NCBI RefSeq assembly: GCF_014643635.1
Contig: NZ_BMJV01000006.1
Location: forward strand, 310,001-374,000
Reading direction: 5' to 3'
Length of the DNA stretch: 64,000 nucleotides
Origin: Salipiger pallidus
Lineage (GTDB): Bacteria; Pseudomonadota; Alphaproteobacteria; Rhodobacterales; Rhodobacteraceae
Part shown: positions 31,556-52,704 of the stretch, one piece after another
How the letters are laid out: the number at the start of each line of letters is the position of its first letter
Position numbering within the stretch: position 1 is the stretch's first letter
Made by a program: the position numbers and the translations under genes
The notes under the pieces: generated by a model
The model's input: only the letters and a program-made list of their open reading frames with translations
Database searches by the model: none
What the model was told of the DNA's origin: nothing

Positions 31556-34138
31556 ATGCCCAAGCAGGCGCGCCCCGAACAGGCCAGCCCCACCAGTTCC
31601 GGTCCCACCAGTTCCGAGGGTGATATTCTTGCTCCGGTGAAATGGCCCCTGCGCCTGACCCTGTGGGGTATGACCGCCGAACGCATCACCCGCGCCTTCT
31701 GGCCGCTGTGGTCCATCGTCATCGCCGCGCTGGCGGCGCTGATGCTGGGACTTCAGGACCTCGTCATGGTGGAATGGGTCTGGGGTACCGGTGCCGTGGC
31801 GCTGGCGGGGGCCGGCTGGGCCGCGTGGCGCGGCATCAGGATGATGCGCCTGCCGACGCGGGCGCAGGCGATCTCTCGCCTCGATGGGTCGATGACCGGC
31901 AACCCGATCCAGGCCGCGCTGGACGATCAGGCCATCGGTGCCGCCGACATGGGCTCGCAGGCCGTGTGGGACGCGCACCAATCACGCATGCGCAAGCGGC
32001 TTGCGGCGGCGAAAGCCGTCCAGCCCGACCTCAGGGTCGCCCGCGCCGATCCCTTTGCCCTGCGCTACGTCGCGCTGCTGGCGCTCGCGGCGGCGCTGAT
32101 CTTCGGCTCGGTCCTGCGGGTGTCGTCGGTCACCGCCATGGGCCCGTCGGGCAGCGATCTGGCCTCGGGCCCCGCGTGGGAAGGCTGGATGGAGCCGCCG
32201 GGCTACACCCGCATGCCGGCCGTCTATCTCAATGACATCACCGCCCCCGGCATCGACGTGCCCGAGGGCGCGCAGATCACCCTGCGCATGTATGGCGAGG
32301 TCGGCGCGCTCAGCGTCGAGGAAACCGTCTCGGGGCGTGATCCGAACCCGGATGTGGCGCAGGACACGGCGCAGGAATTCGCCATCGCACGGTCCGGAAG
32401 GCTTGCCATCGACGGGCCCGGCGGCCGTGCGTGGGACATCTCGGTCACCGCCGACACGCCGCCCACCATCCGCCGCGAGGGGGAAATCGAATCAAGCTAC
32501 GAGGGCGATGCCCAGATCCCCTTCGCTGCCACCGACGATTACGGCGTGGTGGCGGGCACCGCCCGGATCGAGCTGGCGCTTGACGAGGTGAACCGCTCCT
32601 ACCTTCTGGCGGCTGAGCCCGAGGCGCGCGAGGCGATCGAGGTGCAGCTGCCCATGCCGATCGCAGGCGACCGTACCGAATTCACCGAAGCGCTGGTCGA
32701 GAATTTCTCCCAACATGCGTGGGCCAATCTGCCCGTCACGATCTCCATGCGCGTGGAGGACGAGGCAGGGCAGGTTGGCGAAACCGCCCCCGAGGTCATC
32801 ACCCTTCCGGGGCGCAGATTCTTTGATCCTCTGGCCGCTGCGGTGATCGAGCAGCGCCGCGCCTTGCTCTGGACCCGTGATAACGCGCCCGACGTGGCGC
32901 AGATCCTGCGGGCGATCAGCTACCTGCCCGACGATGCCTTCCGCTCGGCGGTGCCTTACCTGAAGCTGCGCCACATCCTGCGGCAGGTGGAGGGTGACTT
33001 CACCACTGAGGCGCGGGACGAGGTGGTTCAGGCCATGTGGGATCTTGCCATCGAGCTGGAAGAGGGCGATCTGGCCTCCGCTCAGGAAAGGCTGCAACGG
33101 GCGCAGGAGCGTCTCGAAGAGGCGATGAAGAATGGCGCCTCCGAACAGGAGATTGCCGAGCTGATGCAGGAGCTGCGCGAAGCGACGGACGACTACCTCC
33201 GCCAGCTGTCGCGGCAGGCCCAGCAGCAGGGCGACCAGAACCCCGAGATGTCGCAGTCTCAGGACATGGTCGAGATGAGCCAGAACGACCTTCAAGGCAT
33301 GATGGACCGCATTCAGGAGCTCATGGAGGAAGGCCGCATGGACGAGGCCGCCGAAGCGCTGCGTCAGCTTCAGGAAATGATGGAGAACATGCAGGTCACC
33401 CAGGGCCAGCAGGGCCAGTCGTCCGGCGAGCAGGCCATGGAAGGCCTTGGTGAGACGCTGCGCGAACAGCAGGGTCTGTCGGACGAGGCGTTCCGCGAGC
33501 TGCAGGAGCAGTACAATCCCGGCCAGCAAGGGCAGCAGGGCCAACAGGGTATGCAAGGCCAGCAAGGTCAGGGTCAGCAGGGCCAACAGCAGGGACAGGG
33601 CGAGGATGGTCAGCAGGGTCAGGGGGGGCAACAGTCTCTCGAGGATAGCCTTGCCCAGCGGCAGCAGCAGCTGCGCAACGAGCTGAACCGCCAGAGCCAG
33701 AACCTTCCCGGTGCCGGCACCGAGGCCGGCGAGGCCGCGCGAGATCAGCTTGGCCGCGCCGGAGAGGCCATGGACGGTGCCGAAGAGGCGCTGCGTGACG
33801 GTGATCTTCCCGGTGCCATCGACCGGCAGAGCCAGGCCATGGAAGCGCTTCGCGAGGGCATGCGGTCTCTTGGCGAGGCGATGGCTCAGCAAGGCCAGCA
33901 GCAGGGCGAGGGCCAGCAAGGCCAGATGGAAGGCGGAGATCCGGGCCAGCAGCGCGACCCGCTGGGCCGCAACGCGGGGGCCAACGGTCAGCTTGGCAGC
34001 GATGAGAGCATGGTGCAGGACGAGGACGTCTACCGTCGCGCCCGAGAACTGCTGGACGAGATCCGCCGCCGTTCCGGCGACGGCGAACGTCCCCAAGAGG
34101 AACTCGACTACCTCGAGCGACTCCTCGAACGGTTCTGA
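31556..34138 (+). CDS. TIGR02302 family membrane protein
   Basis: An 860-residue protein. Membrane helices lie near residues 45-80 and 165-185, followed by a periplasmic-type region and helical charged segments. From about residue 540 the sequence is Gln/Glu/Met-rich, and near 655-695 it becomes a Gly-Gln low-complexity stretch (QGQQGQQG repeats). Alphaproteobacterial TIGR02302 proteins share this layout; their role is not known. Two terminator-like hairpins follow in the next 210 bases. Confidence 0.85.
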   Translation: MPKQARPEQASPTSSGPTSSEGDILAPVKWPLRLTLWGMTAERITRAFWPLWSIVIAALAALMLGLQDLVMVEWVWGTGAVALAGAGWAAWRGIRMMRLPTRAQAISRLDGSMTGNPIQAALDDQAIGAADMGSQAVWDAHQSRMRKRLAAAKAVQPDLRVARADPFALRYVALLALAAALIFGSVLRVSSVTAMGPSGSDLASGPAWEGWMEPPGYTRMPAVYLNDITAPGIDVPEGAQITLRMYGEVGALSVEETVSGRDPNPDVAQDTAQEFAIARSGRLAIDGPGGRAWDISVTADTPPTIRREGEIESSYEGDAQIPFAATDDYGVVAGTARIELALDEVNRSYLLAAEPEAREAIEVQLPMPIAGDRTEFTEALVENFSQHAWANLPVTISMRVEDEAGQVGETAPEVITLPGRRFFDPLAAAVIEQRRALLWTRDNAPDVAQILRAISYLPDDAFRSAVPYLKLRHILRQVEGDFTTEARDEVVQAMWDLAIELEEGDLASAQERLQRAQERLEEAMKNGASEQEIAELMQELREATDDYLRQLSRQAQQQGDQNPEMSQSQDMVEMSQNDLQGMMDRIQELMEEGRMDEAAEALRQLQEMMENMQVTQGQQGQSSGEQAMEGLGETLREQQGLSDEAFRELQEQYNPGQQGQQGQQGMQGQQGQGQQGQQQGQGEDGQQGQGGQQSLEDSLAQRQQQLRNELNRQSQNLPGAGTEAGEAARDQLGRAGEAMDGAEEALRDGDLPGAIDRQSQAMEALREGMRSLGEAMAQQGQQQGEGQQGQMEGGDPGQQRDPLGRNAGANGQLGSDESMVQDEDVYRRARELLDEIRRRSGDGERPQEELDYLERLLERF

Positions 34139-34285
34139 TGCGGCTCCGCATGTGCGGGGCGGCCCTCAGCAGATGTGGGTCGGGCGGGAAGCTTCAGGCT
34201 TTGGCTCCGCATGCGTGGGATGGCCTCGTGCGGCCTGGCCTTGGTTTGCTTCACCTCGCTGACTGATGCAAAAGCGGCACGGGCT

Positions 34286-34303
34286 GACGCCTCTTGGCGT
34301 TTT
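34286..34303 (+). terminator. weak terminator-like hairpin
   Basis: ACGCC-TCTT-GGCGT with a following run of T (34300-34303). It lies about 150 bases after the TIGR02302 stop. Confidence 0.5.
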
Positions 34304-34322
34304 CACGATAAAGGCGCTGGCG

Positions 34323-34347
34323 AAACGCGGCACCGGTCCGCGTTTTT
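34323..34347 (+). terminator. terminator-like hairpin
   Basis: AAACGCGG (34323-34330) pairs with CCGCGTTT (34338-34345), followed by further T to 34347. The stem also gives an A run on the other strand, so it could work in both directions. Confidence 0.65.
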
Positions 34348-34527
34348 CCGCTCGGAGCGGAGGCGTGGTTCGCACTGACGCTCGGAGCCTGGCATATGGC
34401 ATTTGTCGTCTGACACCATTCGGCGCGTCCACGAGGAAAGCTGGTGCCGTCGTCCTGCGGCGCTCCGCGTATCGGCTGGTCAGTGTGGGTTCTGAGGTTC
34501 GATACCTGCTTGGCAGCTGTGATCTTG

Positions 34528-34735
34528 CATGTCCCGATGTTTCGATGTTTCGATGTTTCGATGTTTCGATGTTTCGATGTTTCGATGTTTCGATGTTTCG
34601 ATGTTTCGATGTTTCGATGTTTCGATGTTTCGATGTTTCGATGTTTCGATGTTTCGATGTTTCGATGTTTCGATGTTTCGATGTTTCGATGTTTCGATGT
34701 TTCGATGTTTCGATGTCTCGATGTCTCGATGTCCC
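34528..34735. repeat. octanucleotide tandem array, unit GATGTTTC
   Basis: Twenty-two perfect head-to-tail copies of GATGTTTC fill 34536-34711. Two GATGTCTC units and one GATGTCCC follow to 34735, and a CATGTCCC variant precedes at 34528, giving about 26 units in 208 bases. Degenerate units only at the edges suggest recent expansion. Because the unit is 8 bases, every frame repeats an 8-residue peptide and none has a stop. Such arrays can change length by slippage. The array ends 143 bases before the MarR-GNAT start. Confidence 0.97.
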
Positions 34736-34807
34736 AGTGTCCAGCCTCGCGCGGCATCCGTCCTCCGAATGCGCTCCGGATGCTATGCAGGATCACGGCC
34801 CACATCT

Positions 34808-34821
34808 CTGACATGAGTCAG
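34808..34821. promoter_or_regulatory. palindrome CTGAC-ATGA-GTCAG (candidate operator 1)
   Basis: A perfect 5-bp-arm dyad with a 4-base centre. An identical-arm palindrome lies 36 bases downstream. Both are preceded by TCT. They sit 58 and 22 bases before the MarR-GNAT start, the expected place for an operator of an autoregulated MarR protein. Confidence 0.55.
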
Positions 34822-34843
34822 CTATTGCTCTTGGTAGCCCTCT

Positions 34844-34857
34844 CTGACAAAAGTCAG
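34844..34857. promoter_or_regulatory. palindrome CTGAC-AAAA-GTCAG (candidate operator 2)
   Basis: Same arms as the upstream site, extended by one more paired base on each side (T/A). It ends 21 bases before the ATG of the MarR-GNAT gene, so a bound protein could block the promoter or ribosome site. Confidence 0.55.
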
Positions 34858-34878
34858 AAAAATTGCGCCGGAGCCGTC

Positions 34879-35778
34879 ATGTCTAACACCTCATCTTCCG
34901 ACCTGCTTAACAATGCCGTAGCCCGCACACGTCGGTTCCACCGCGCGGTGACCACCGAGGCCGGGGTGCTCGACGACAGCTTCCTTGGTCGTGGCCGACC
35001 GCTGGGACCGGCGCGGGTGCTCAACGCCATCGGACATGGCCGTCGCGACGTGACCGAGATCCGTGGTTATCTCGGGCTCGATTCCGGGCTGATGAGCCGC
35101 CTGCTGCGCGGTCTGGAGGATGAGGGCCTTGTCACCGTCAGCCCCGATCCGCAGGATGCCCGCCGTCGCCTTGCTGCGCTCACCACGAAAGGGGCGGAAG
35201 AGTTCGCCGCCTATGATGCGCTGTCCGACGATCAGGCGGCGCGGATCCTTGCCCGCTATCCCCGCCCCGAGACGCTTCTGGCAGCCATGGACATCGTTGC
35301 CACCGCCCTTGGAATCGAGCGCACCGAGATCATCGAGACCGACCCCCGCGATCCCCGTGCCGTCGCCTGCCTGAGCGCCTATTACGAAGAGCTGGGACAG
35401 CGGCTGAAGACTGGATTCGACGTGTCGCTGTCCGCCGATCCCGAGGCCACGGCCATGATGTCCCCGCGGGGGGCCTTCCTTGTGGCGATCAGCGACGGCA
35501 TGCCCATTGGCTGTGTCGGGCTCAAGGGCACCGACAAGGGCTATGCCGAGGTCAAGCGCCTGTGGACCGCGCCCTCCGCCCGGGGGATGGGGCTGGCAAA
35601 GCGGCTGATGGCCGTGCTCGAGGACAGGGCGCGCGATCTTGGCATCGGGCTGCTCCGGCTCGACAGCAACAGCGCGCTGCCCGAGGCCATCGCCATGTAC
35701 CGCAGTGCCGGATGGACAGAAATCGACCGCTTCAACGATGATCCCTACCCGGACCACTTCTTCGAAAAGGCGCTTTAG
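34879..35778 (+). CDS. MarR-GNAT fusion: regulator plus acetyltransferase
   Basis: A 299-residue protein. Residues about 1-145 form a MarR-type winged helix (LGPARVLNAIGHGRRDVTEI, GLDSGLMSRLLRGLEDEGLV, DARRRLAALTTKG). Residues about 150-299 form a GNAT acetyltransferase with the acetyl-CoA loop ARGMGLAKR and a YRSAGW segment. Such fusions probably couple metabolite acetylation or sensing to transcription. The frame is open through the octamer array upstream, but the family start is at 34879. Twin palindromes upstream suggest autoregulation. Confidence 0.88.
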   Translation: MSNTSSSDLLNNAVARTRRFHRAVTTEAGVLDDSFLGRGRPLGPARVLNAIGHGRRDVTEIRGYLGLDSGLMSRLLRGLEDEGLVTVSPDPQDARRRLAALTTKGAEEFAAYDALSDDQAARILARYPRPETLLAAMDIVATALGIERTEIIETDPRDPRAVACLSAYYEELGQRLKTGFDVSLSADPEATAMMSPRGAFLVAISDGMPIGCVGLKGTDKGYAEVKRLWTAPSARGMGLAKRLMAVLEDRARDLGIGLLRLDSNSALPEAIAMYRSAGWTEIDRFNDDPYPDHFFEKAL

Positions 35779-44807: not shown

Positions 44808-44873
44808 GCACCCTAAGTGCAGCGGCGGGACACCCTTCCCCAACGAAGGGCATCTATCTGTAAGGTTAGGCTA
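44808..44873 (+). ncRNA. serC-type leader RNA with possible pseudoknot
   Basis: Directly before serC lie hairpin 1 GCAC-CCTAA-GTGC (44808-44820) and hairpin 2 CCCTTC-CCCAAC-GAAGGG (44833-44850), then TAAGGTTAGGCTACATA before the ATG. The CCTAA loop of hairpin 1 is complementary to TTAGG at 44866-44870, next to the ribosome-binding region, which would make a pseudoknot. The layout and the serC context agree with the conserved serC RNA motif of alphaproteobacteria as I remember it; its ligand, if any, is unknown. Confidence 0.65.
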
Positions 44874-44877
44874 CATA

Positions 44878-51873: not shown

Positions 51874-52704
51874 TCAGCGCCGTGCGCCCCAGCTCGCCGA
51901 GGCGTGCTTACGGGTGTAGAATTCGCCCATCAGCCCGATCATGATCAGCACGATGGACACGTAAAGCGCATATTCCCAGTCCGAGTTGCGCGGGTTGTAG
52001 TCGACGAAGGCGTAGCCGCGCGACTGGTCGATGGCGTGGAAGAGCGGATTCCAGTCGAACATCACCAGCATGTAGCTGGGCAGCGTGTTGGCCACGAACA
52101 TCTTGCCCGAGGCGATCATGTTGGCCCGCTGGTAGACCGTGGACAGGATCTGCACCGGGGTCGGGAACCACGGCTTGGCCGCAAGGAACACCATGCCGAT
52201 AGCGGCCCCTGAGAACCACGCCAGCAGGATCATCGCCATGCAGCCGATGGGATCGTGGATTTCCTGCATGACGAAGGGATTGAACGCCACGTCGTAGATG
52301 AACAGGATGAAGATCAGGCTCAGCACCTGGATATAGAGGGTCGACAGCATGGCCGAGGCGATGGCGATGGCCGTGTTCATCGGCGCATGCTGCATCATCG
52401 GGCTTGCCGGGCCTTCCGAGGAGACCACCGCCCCCAGCGTCTTGGTGTGGGTCATGTAAAGGAACACGCCGGTCATGATGTAGATCATGAAATCCCCGCG
52501 CAGGGCGGTGCTGCGCATCCCGAGGATCTGGAACATGAAGTAGAAGGCCAGCACGAAAATGATGGTCTGCAGCATGTTCATGAACAGCGCCATGAAGGCG
52601 TTGCCGTGGGTCTTGCGCACCGCCCGCACCGAATTGTGGTAGATCAGTTCGGCGATGTAGACCGCAGATCCCAGCCGCGAGCGCGGCTTCGTGGTCTGAA
52701 ACAT
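51874..52704 (-). CDS. ABC-2 type permease (polysaccharide export, KpsM type)
   Basis: A 276-residue membrane protein with six helices (IIFVLAFYFMFQIL, FMIYIMTGVFLYM, LYIQVLSLIFILFIYDV, IGCMAMILLAWFSG, MLVMFDWNPLFHAIDQSR, ALYVSIVLIMIGLMGEFY) and the NPLFH/DQSR region typical of KpsM/Wzm. GGAG supports the start at 52704. It exports capsule or O-antigen-type glycan with a partner ATPase, which is not in the window. Divergent from cysQ. Confidence 0.85.
   Translation of the reverse strand: MFQTTKPRSRLGSAVYIAELIYHNSVRAVRKTHGNAFMALFMNMLQTIIFVLAFYFMFQILGMRSTALRGDFMIYIMTGVFLYMTHTKTLGAVVSSEGPASPMMQHAPMNTAIAIASAMLSTLYIQVLSLIFILFIYDVAFNPFVMQEIHDPIGCMAMILLAWFSGAAIGMVFLAAKPWFPTPVQILSTVYQRANMIASGKMFVANTLPSYMLVMFDWNPLFHAIDQSRGYAFVDYNPRNSDWEYALYVSIVLIMIGLMGEFYTRKHASASWGARR

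Follow-up and report, generated by a model that had tools for sequence, protein, structure and literature searches.

A long perfect octanucleotide array in the spacer upstream of a MarR-GNAT gene of Salipiger pallidus

Results

Structure of the array

The window, by which we mean the whole stretch of 64,000 nucleotides from Salipiger pallidus that was analysed, carries an octanucleotide array between two genes. The gene order is a DUF4175 gene, a gene encoding a fusion of a MarR-type regulator and a GNAT acetyltransferase (MarR-GNAT), and then an rlmN-like gene. The features of the locus are listed in Table 1.

Table 1. Features of the locus (window coordinates) and the long perfect arrays of the sampled genome
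Feature	Coordinates	Strand	Description
DUF4175 gene	31556..34138	+	860 aa; upstream of spacer
Spacer	34139..34878	.	740 bases, intergenic, holds the array
Octanucleotide array	34528..34735	.	CATGTCCC, 22 x GATGTTTC, 2 x GATGTCTC, GATGTCCC
Operator-like palindrome CTGACATGAGTCAG	34808..34821	.	
Operator-like palindrome CTGACAAAAGTCAG	34844..34857	.	Same sequence as before the orthologous genes of G017 and G002
MarR-GNAT gene	34879..35778	+	299 aa; MarR_2 and Acetyltransf_1 domains
Arrays of at least four copies in this genome			TGGGCATC x9, CTGCGAGG x13.5, CAAAGAGC x11.6, ACCCGAAG x6.2, CGATGTTT x22.8, AGGCTCA x19.6, GCCTGA x9.7, CGGTGT x4.8, CGAAGC x5.5, TCCGAACCC x8.6

Direct reading of the array gave 26 eight-base units in 208 bases, and the 22 perfect copies of GATGTTTC occupied 34536-34711. 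The left edge unit CATGTCCC at 34528 had three differences from GATGTTTC. At the 3' edge, the units GATGTCTC at 34712 and 34720 had one difference each, and GATGTCCC at 34728-34735 had two. Tandem Repeats Finder reported a period of 8 over 34535-34732, with 24.8 copies, 99% match and 0% indels. The perfect run extended without interruption over 34535-34716, corresponding to 22.8 copies. Reading and program therefore confirmed the initial annotation, which had described about 26 units in 208 bases with 22 perfect copies and degeneracy only at the edges. A simulation of 1.92 Mb with the dinucleotide transitions of the window produced 9 arrays of unit 5-10 with at least three copies and 0 with at least four copies. 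Chance origin of the array is excluded, and the array is a simple sequence repeat in the sense of short head-to-tail units beyond chance. It is real, it was accurately described, and it is an ordinary kind of thing.

We consider it very unlikely that assembly produced the copy number or the length of the perfect run. The array lies inside a 397 kb contig, and its left flank (34139-34535) is single-copy in the genome. The edge units are graded, and further arrays of the same class were found elsewhere in the genome. These observations stand against an artefact, although the genome is a draft of 23 contigs and common short reads are shorter than the 208-base array.

The array was restricted to one site. 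No further array of three GATGTTTC-type units was found in the genome, even when degenerate units were admitted with up to two mismatches over three units. Three perfect GATGTTTC units were found in 0 of 120 relatives.

Reading frames through the array

All three forward frames were open through the array, in the ORFs 34266-34811, 34444-35778 and 34529-34816, and an ATG was present in each of them, in line with the earlier remark that every unit carries an ATG and that the 8-base period leaves all frames open. This meant that changes in copy number would not simply switch a reading frame on or off. The ORF 34444-35778 continues through the array into MarR-GNAT, and a translational phase switch could be imagined here, in which copy number shifts the frame of a start upstream of the array. 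Such a switch is barely credible. With ATG in all frames, some in-frame start would exist at any copy number; the orthologous genes begin just past the palindrome described below; and the part 34444-34878 gave no Pfam match. The array was thus not found in a copy-number-gated frame of the kind known from phase-variable loci, since its frames are open with ATG and it lies between genes. A coding repeat was rejected because none of the four tested ORFs through the array, 34251-34814 on the minus strand and 34266-34811, 34529-34816 and the part 34444-34878 on the plus strand, matched a Pfam family.

Comparison of the spacer with related genomes

Matches to MarR-GNAT with E < 1e-90 were obtained in 9 of 121 genomes, including the array genome, and four of these nine were among the 20 genomes that represented the genus. 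The order DUF4175, MarR-GNAT and rlmN was kept in three genomes of the same genus, G017, G002 and G011. Their DUF4175-MarR spacers, measured up to the start codon judged likely, were 58, 67 and 65 bases, respectively, compared to 740 bases in the array genome. Both the array and the long spacer were missing from all three syntenic loci. These results indicated that approximately 680 bases, including the array, were peculiar to the array genome among these four. Together with the 22 perfect copies and the deviating edge units, the absence from the three loci supported recent expansion or homogenisation, as had been proposed from the sequence.

The spacer without the array had 62% G+C, compared to 65% for the window. 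A search of the genus with the whole spacer returned the operator part in G002 (E 2.4e-4) and, beyond three chance-like 27-base hits (E 0.006-0.0075), nothing else. A second copy of 34139-34535 was not found in the genome, where the next best match had E 0.82, and the whole spacer had no plasmid match. The stretch 34100-34530 contained three pairs of short direct repeats and no inverted ones. A mobile element or duplicated DNA as the source of the spacer was rejected on the basis of the missing second copy, plasmid match and inverted repeats. A structured RNA was also rejected, as none of the three Rfam matches in the window was near the array at gathering scores. The three matches were a glycine riboswitch at 1050-1146, a serC leader at 44823-44874 and a Ruegeria cis2 sRNA at 51980-52131.

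Palindromes upstream of MarR-GNAT

Both palindromes of the array genome are located downstream of the array and before the MarR-GNAT start. The distance from the array end was 72 bases to the first palindrome and 143 bases to the start codon. The exact motif CTGACN4GTCAG was found before the MarR-GNAT start in six of eight orthologs (L010, L011, L013, L014, L015 and L017). It had one mismatch in L012, and L016 showed degenerate copies only, as judged by eye. In the six exact cases, the motif was a few to some tens of bases from the start codon of the ortholog. In the three syntenic relatives, where the 58-67 base spacer holds no array, the palindrome was exact in two and had one mismatch in the third. 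A search of the window with a longer palindrome pattern and up to three mismatches gave 17 matches, against a chance mean of 21. The two best matches, with 0 and 1 mismatch, were the palindromes at 34808 and 34844. Upstream of the array, the spacer held a single match, at 34409, with three mismatches and at chance level. No sigma-70-like promoter was found by a consensus scan of 34000-35000. The palindromes are putative operators of the MarR domain, and the motif pair at 34808-34857 is likely an autoregulatory operator.

The initial annotation had placed the array near the MarR-GNAT promoter and suggested a length-dependent switch. The array ends 72 bases short of the first palindrome and the consensus scan yielded no promoter, so a position at the promoter is putative. 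The switch was possible but unsupported, since the array is outside the conserved palindrome block and no palindrome beyond chance lies upstream of it.

Comparison with known repeat systems

NadR is a MarR-family protein, and phase variation usually concerns surface structures. Length-dependent modulation of the promoter, in which copy number would alter MarR-GNAT transcription as with the hmw heptamers or the nadA TAAA repeat, is unlikely. The neighbour is a regulator-acetyltransferase fusion and not a usual phase-varied surface structure, and the three syntenic relatives have the palindrome and the short spacer without any array. The distances of 143 and 72 bases given above are in favour of such modulation, and hmw arrays of H. 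influenzae are found at comparable sites, where heptamers modulate expression (PMC2651432, in the part consulted). According to that part, (GCATCATC)12-15 is located 200-213 nt upstream of hmw1a and hmw2a, and heptamers approximately 100 bp upstream modulate expression. The likeness lies in units of 7-8 bases, 12-38 copies and a position 69-213 bases upstream of the gene. However, strain variation and an effect of the heptamers on expression are reported there, and the neighbour here is no adhesin. A literature search on octanucleotide repeats and phase variation also pointed to work on H. influenzae (PMC3309571). The nadA TAAA repeat with its repressor NadR resembles the present locus in that a repeat lies near operators upstream of a gene (PMC3899988, as excerpted). 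However, the TAAA repeat lies between NadR sites according to the same excerpt, whereas both palindromes here are on one side of the array. This meant that the array is not between operators, unlike the nadA repeat, but outside both palindromes.

The heptamer families of Xanthomonas (GGGAATC) and Nostoc were similar in forming mostly intergenic arrays, with 2-26 units in Xanthomonas, and their lengths vary between related genomes with unclear function (PMC4692102, sections seen). In the same sections, the Xanthomonas motif is G-rich and quadruplex-forming and is present at 183-186 sites per genome. In contrast, the present array is found at one locus, its word is not G-rich, and the genome's remaining arrays are built from different units. 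A multi-locus intergenic family as in Xanthomonas or Nostoc was therefore not found, because the GATGTTTC array is at one genome site.

The same octamer in other genomes

In a genome collection, stretches with four perfect GATGTTTC units occurred 20 times, spread over 13 genomes and several phyla. The carriers were Prevotella, other Bacteroidales, a Chitinophagaceae bacterium, two Xanthomarina, Caballeronia, Planctomycetaceae, Spirochaetaceae and an Oceanospirillaceae bacterium. This scatter is as expected from independent expansions. The two Xanthomarina species (L079 and L082) had one common locus with similar flanks, and the perfect copies numbered 7 in one and 8 in the other. Viral contigs contained 0 stretches of three perfect units, and a viral origin of the octamer was rejected. 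The octamer read backwards was absent from those 13 genomes, which is no fair test of preference because the genomes were chosen for having the octamer. A literature search for the doubled octamer in six rotations and complements found no paper.

In Prevotella and other Bacteroidales (G121, G122, G123, G126, G128 and G129; L134-L167), GATGYTTC arrays formed multi-locus families, and several of these genomes were, by title, from ruminant samples. By crude ORF calls, an opposite-strand gene was the left neighbour of 25 of 34 arrays and the right neighbour of 25 of 33 arrays, a count that omits the 7 of 41 arrays inside an ORF and the G129:C100 array. GAAACATC tends to read with genes in Bacteroidales. 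These arrays had the same unit as the array here and were mostly in spacers. However, they occupied many loci per genome with mixed units, and their usual orientation to genes was opposite.

The recurrence of the octamer in several phyla and the preferred orientation of the multi-locus Bacteroidales families could mean that the array is selected in its own right, as a binding platform for a protein or an RNA element. Both strands also folded better than shuffles, with z of -2.32 and -4.03. We regard this explanation as highly improbable. The array is at one locus in the genome and absent from 120 of 120 relatives, and it runs against the orientation preferred in Bacteroidales. Near the array, no Rfam match reached gathering scores, and the repetition of a unit that holds TCGA would suffice for the folding energy.

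Long perfect arrays in the genome and its congeners

Perfect arrays with a unit of 5-10 bases were searched in 1.254 Mb of the array genome and in 1.196 Mb of nine genomes of the same genus. From the array genome we took window positions 10001-64000 and 60 stretches, which covered contig C6 almost completely and C1-C5 and C7 at intervals. This sample was non-random in that the heavily covered C6 carries the array, and the nine comparison genomes were represented unevenly, by 20 to 400 kb. Ten arrays with at least four copies were found in the array genome and one in the nine congeners (binomial p 0.007). The comparison was 9 to 1 without the GATGTTTC array and the window (p 0.011). These p values are rough, given the clustering of the sample and the uneven shares of the nine genomes. 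The single array of the congeners was TCCCTC x 16 in G005. For arrays with at least three copies, the numbers were 18 and 13 (p 0.28). Short seeds were thus equally common in the relatives and long arrays were not, which points to expansion. In the part of the genome sampled, long perfect arrays of 6-9-base units are in excess, and the array is one of them. The view that no such array was to be expected in this neighbourhood held for the relatives, which lack the array, and failed for the genome itself, which has other arrays of the class.

Five of the ten arrays were octamers, and all ten units were different. Both probable intergenic positions and probable coding sequence were represented among the arrays, an example of the latter being CGGTGT x4.8 inside a 700-codon ORF. 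Compared with random words matched for length and G+C, the ten units resembled one another slightly more, with a mean longest shared stretch of 3.56 against 3.15. This likeness was reached by 7 of 500 random sets (0.014). GCCTGA and AGGCTCA had 6 bases in common, as did CGAAGC and ACCCGAAG, and the GATGTTTC unit shared at most 4 with any other. The units may have a shared origin or a shared bias. Loss of repair as the cause of the excess was rejected at the level of gene presence, since the MutS, MutL, XseA and RecJ families are present. The exonuclease VII large subunit and RecJ were found in 20 of 20 genus members, including the array genome.

Discussion

The array is probably a neutral octanucleotide microsatellite that expanded by slippage in a lineage-specific spacer and has no dedicated function, with MarR-GNAT controlled via the two palindromes. 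Replication slippage or unequal recombination would have given rise to it and lengthened it, in a lineage-specific, non-conserved spacer presumably under little constraint. On either strand, the TCGA of one unit can pair with that of its neighbour to give a 4-base stem and a 4-base loop, which may favour slippage. The backward octamer would hold a like palindrome (AGCT), so the hairpin leaves the choice of this particular word unexplained. Control of MarR-GNAT most likely runs through the two palindromes downstream, and the array would simply lie upstream of them. Array length probably varies among cells and strains, and use as a variable-length strain marker is plausible, the closest parallel being the 7 and 8 copies at the locus of the two Xanthomarina species. 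As a locus, it would be a possible strain marker and little more.

The excess of arrays in one member of the genus, with nine others nearly without them in the sampled parts, is the interesting residue. Such a contrast within one genus would be a natural setting in which to ask what limits the slippage of octamers in bacteria. Mismatch repair tends to miss loops of octamer size. We tentatively suggest, at somewhat less than even confidence, that the species is undergoing a genome-wide expansion of perfect arrays of 6-9-base units, unlike its congeners, and that loops of this size escape correction more often than in its sister species. If this were true, the longest product seen to date would be the GATGTTTC array, and taken together the arrays would serve as a fast clock or generate variation in expression. 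Reports on 6-9-base units are called rare in the sections of PMC4692102 seen.

Several of the other arrays lie close to recognisable genes. The TGGGCATC x 9 array follows a gene with a FliL match just under the Pfam cut-off, and the downstream side of this locus had no recognised match in the loci of relatives. The perfect heptamer array AGGCTCA x 19.6 (L234:3474-3610) is separated by 215 bases from the 3' (stop) end of a dnaX-like gene. The array CAAAGAGC x 11.6 (L241:13672-13764) follows a FUSC-like gene and stands just before a hairpin that by eye is terminator-like, and ACCCGAAG x 6.2 (L243:16633-16682) is approximately 120 bases before the likely start, as judged by eye, of an HlyIII-like gene.
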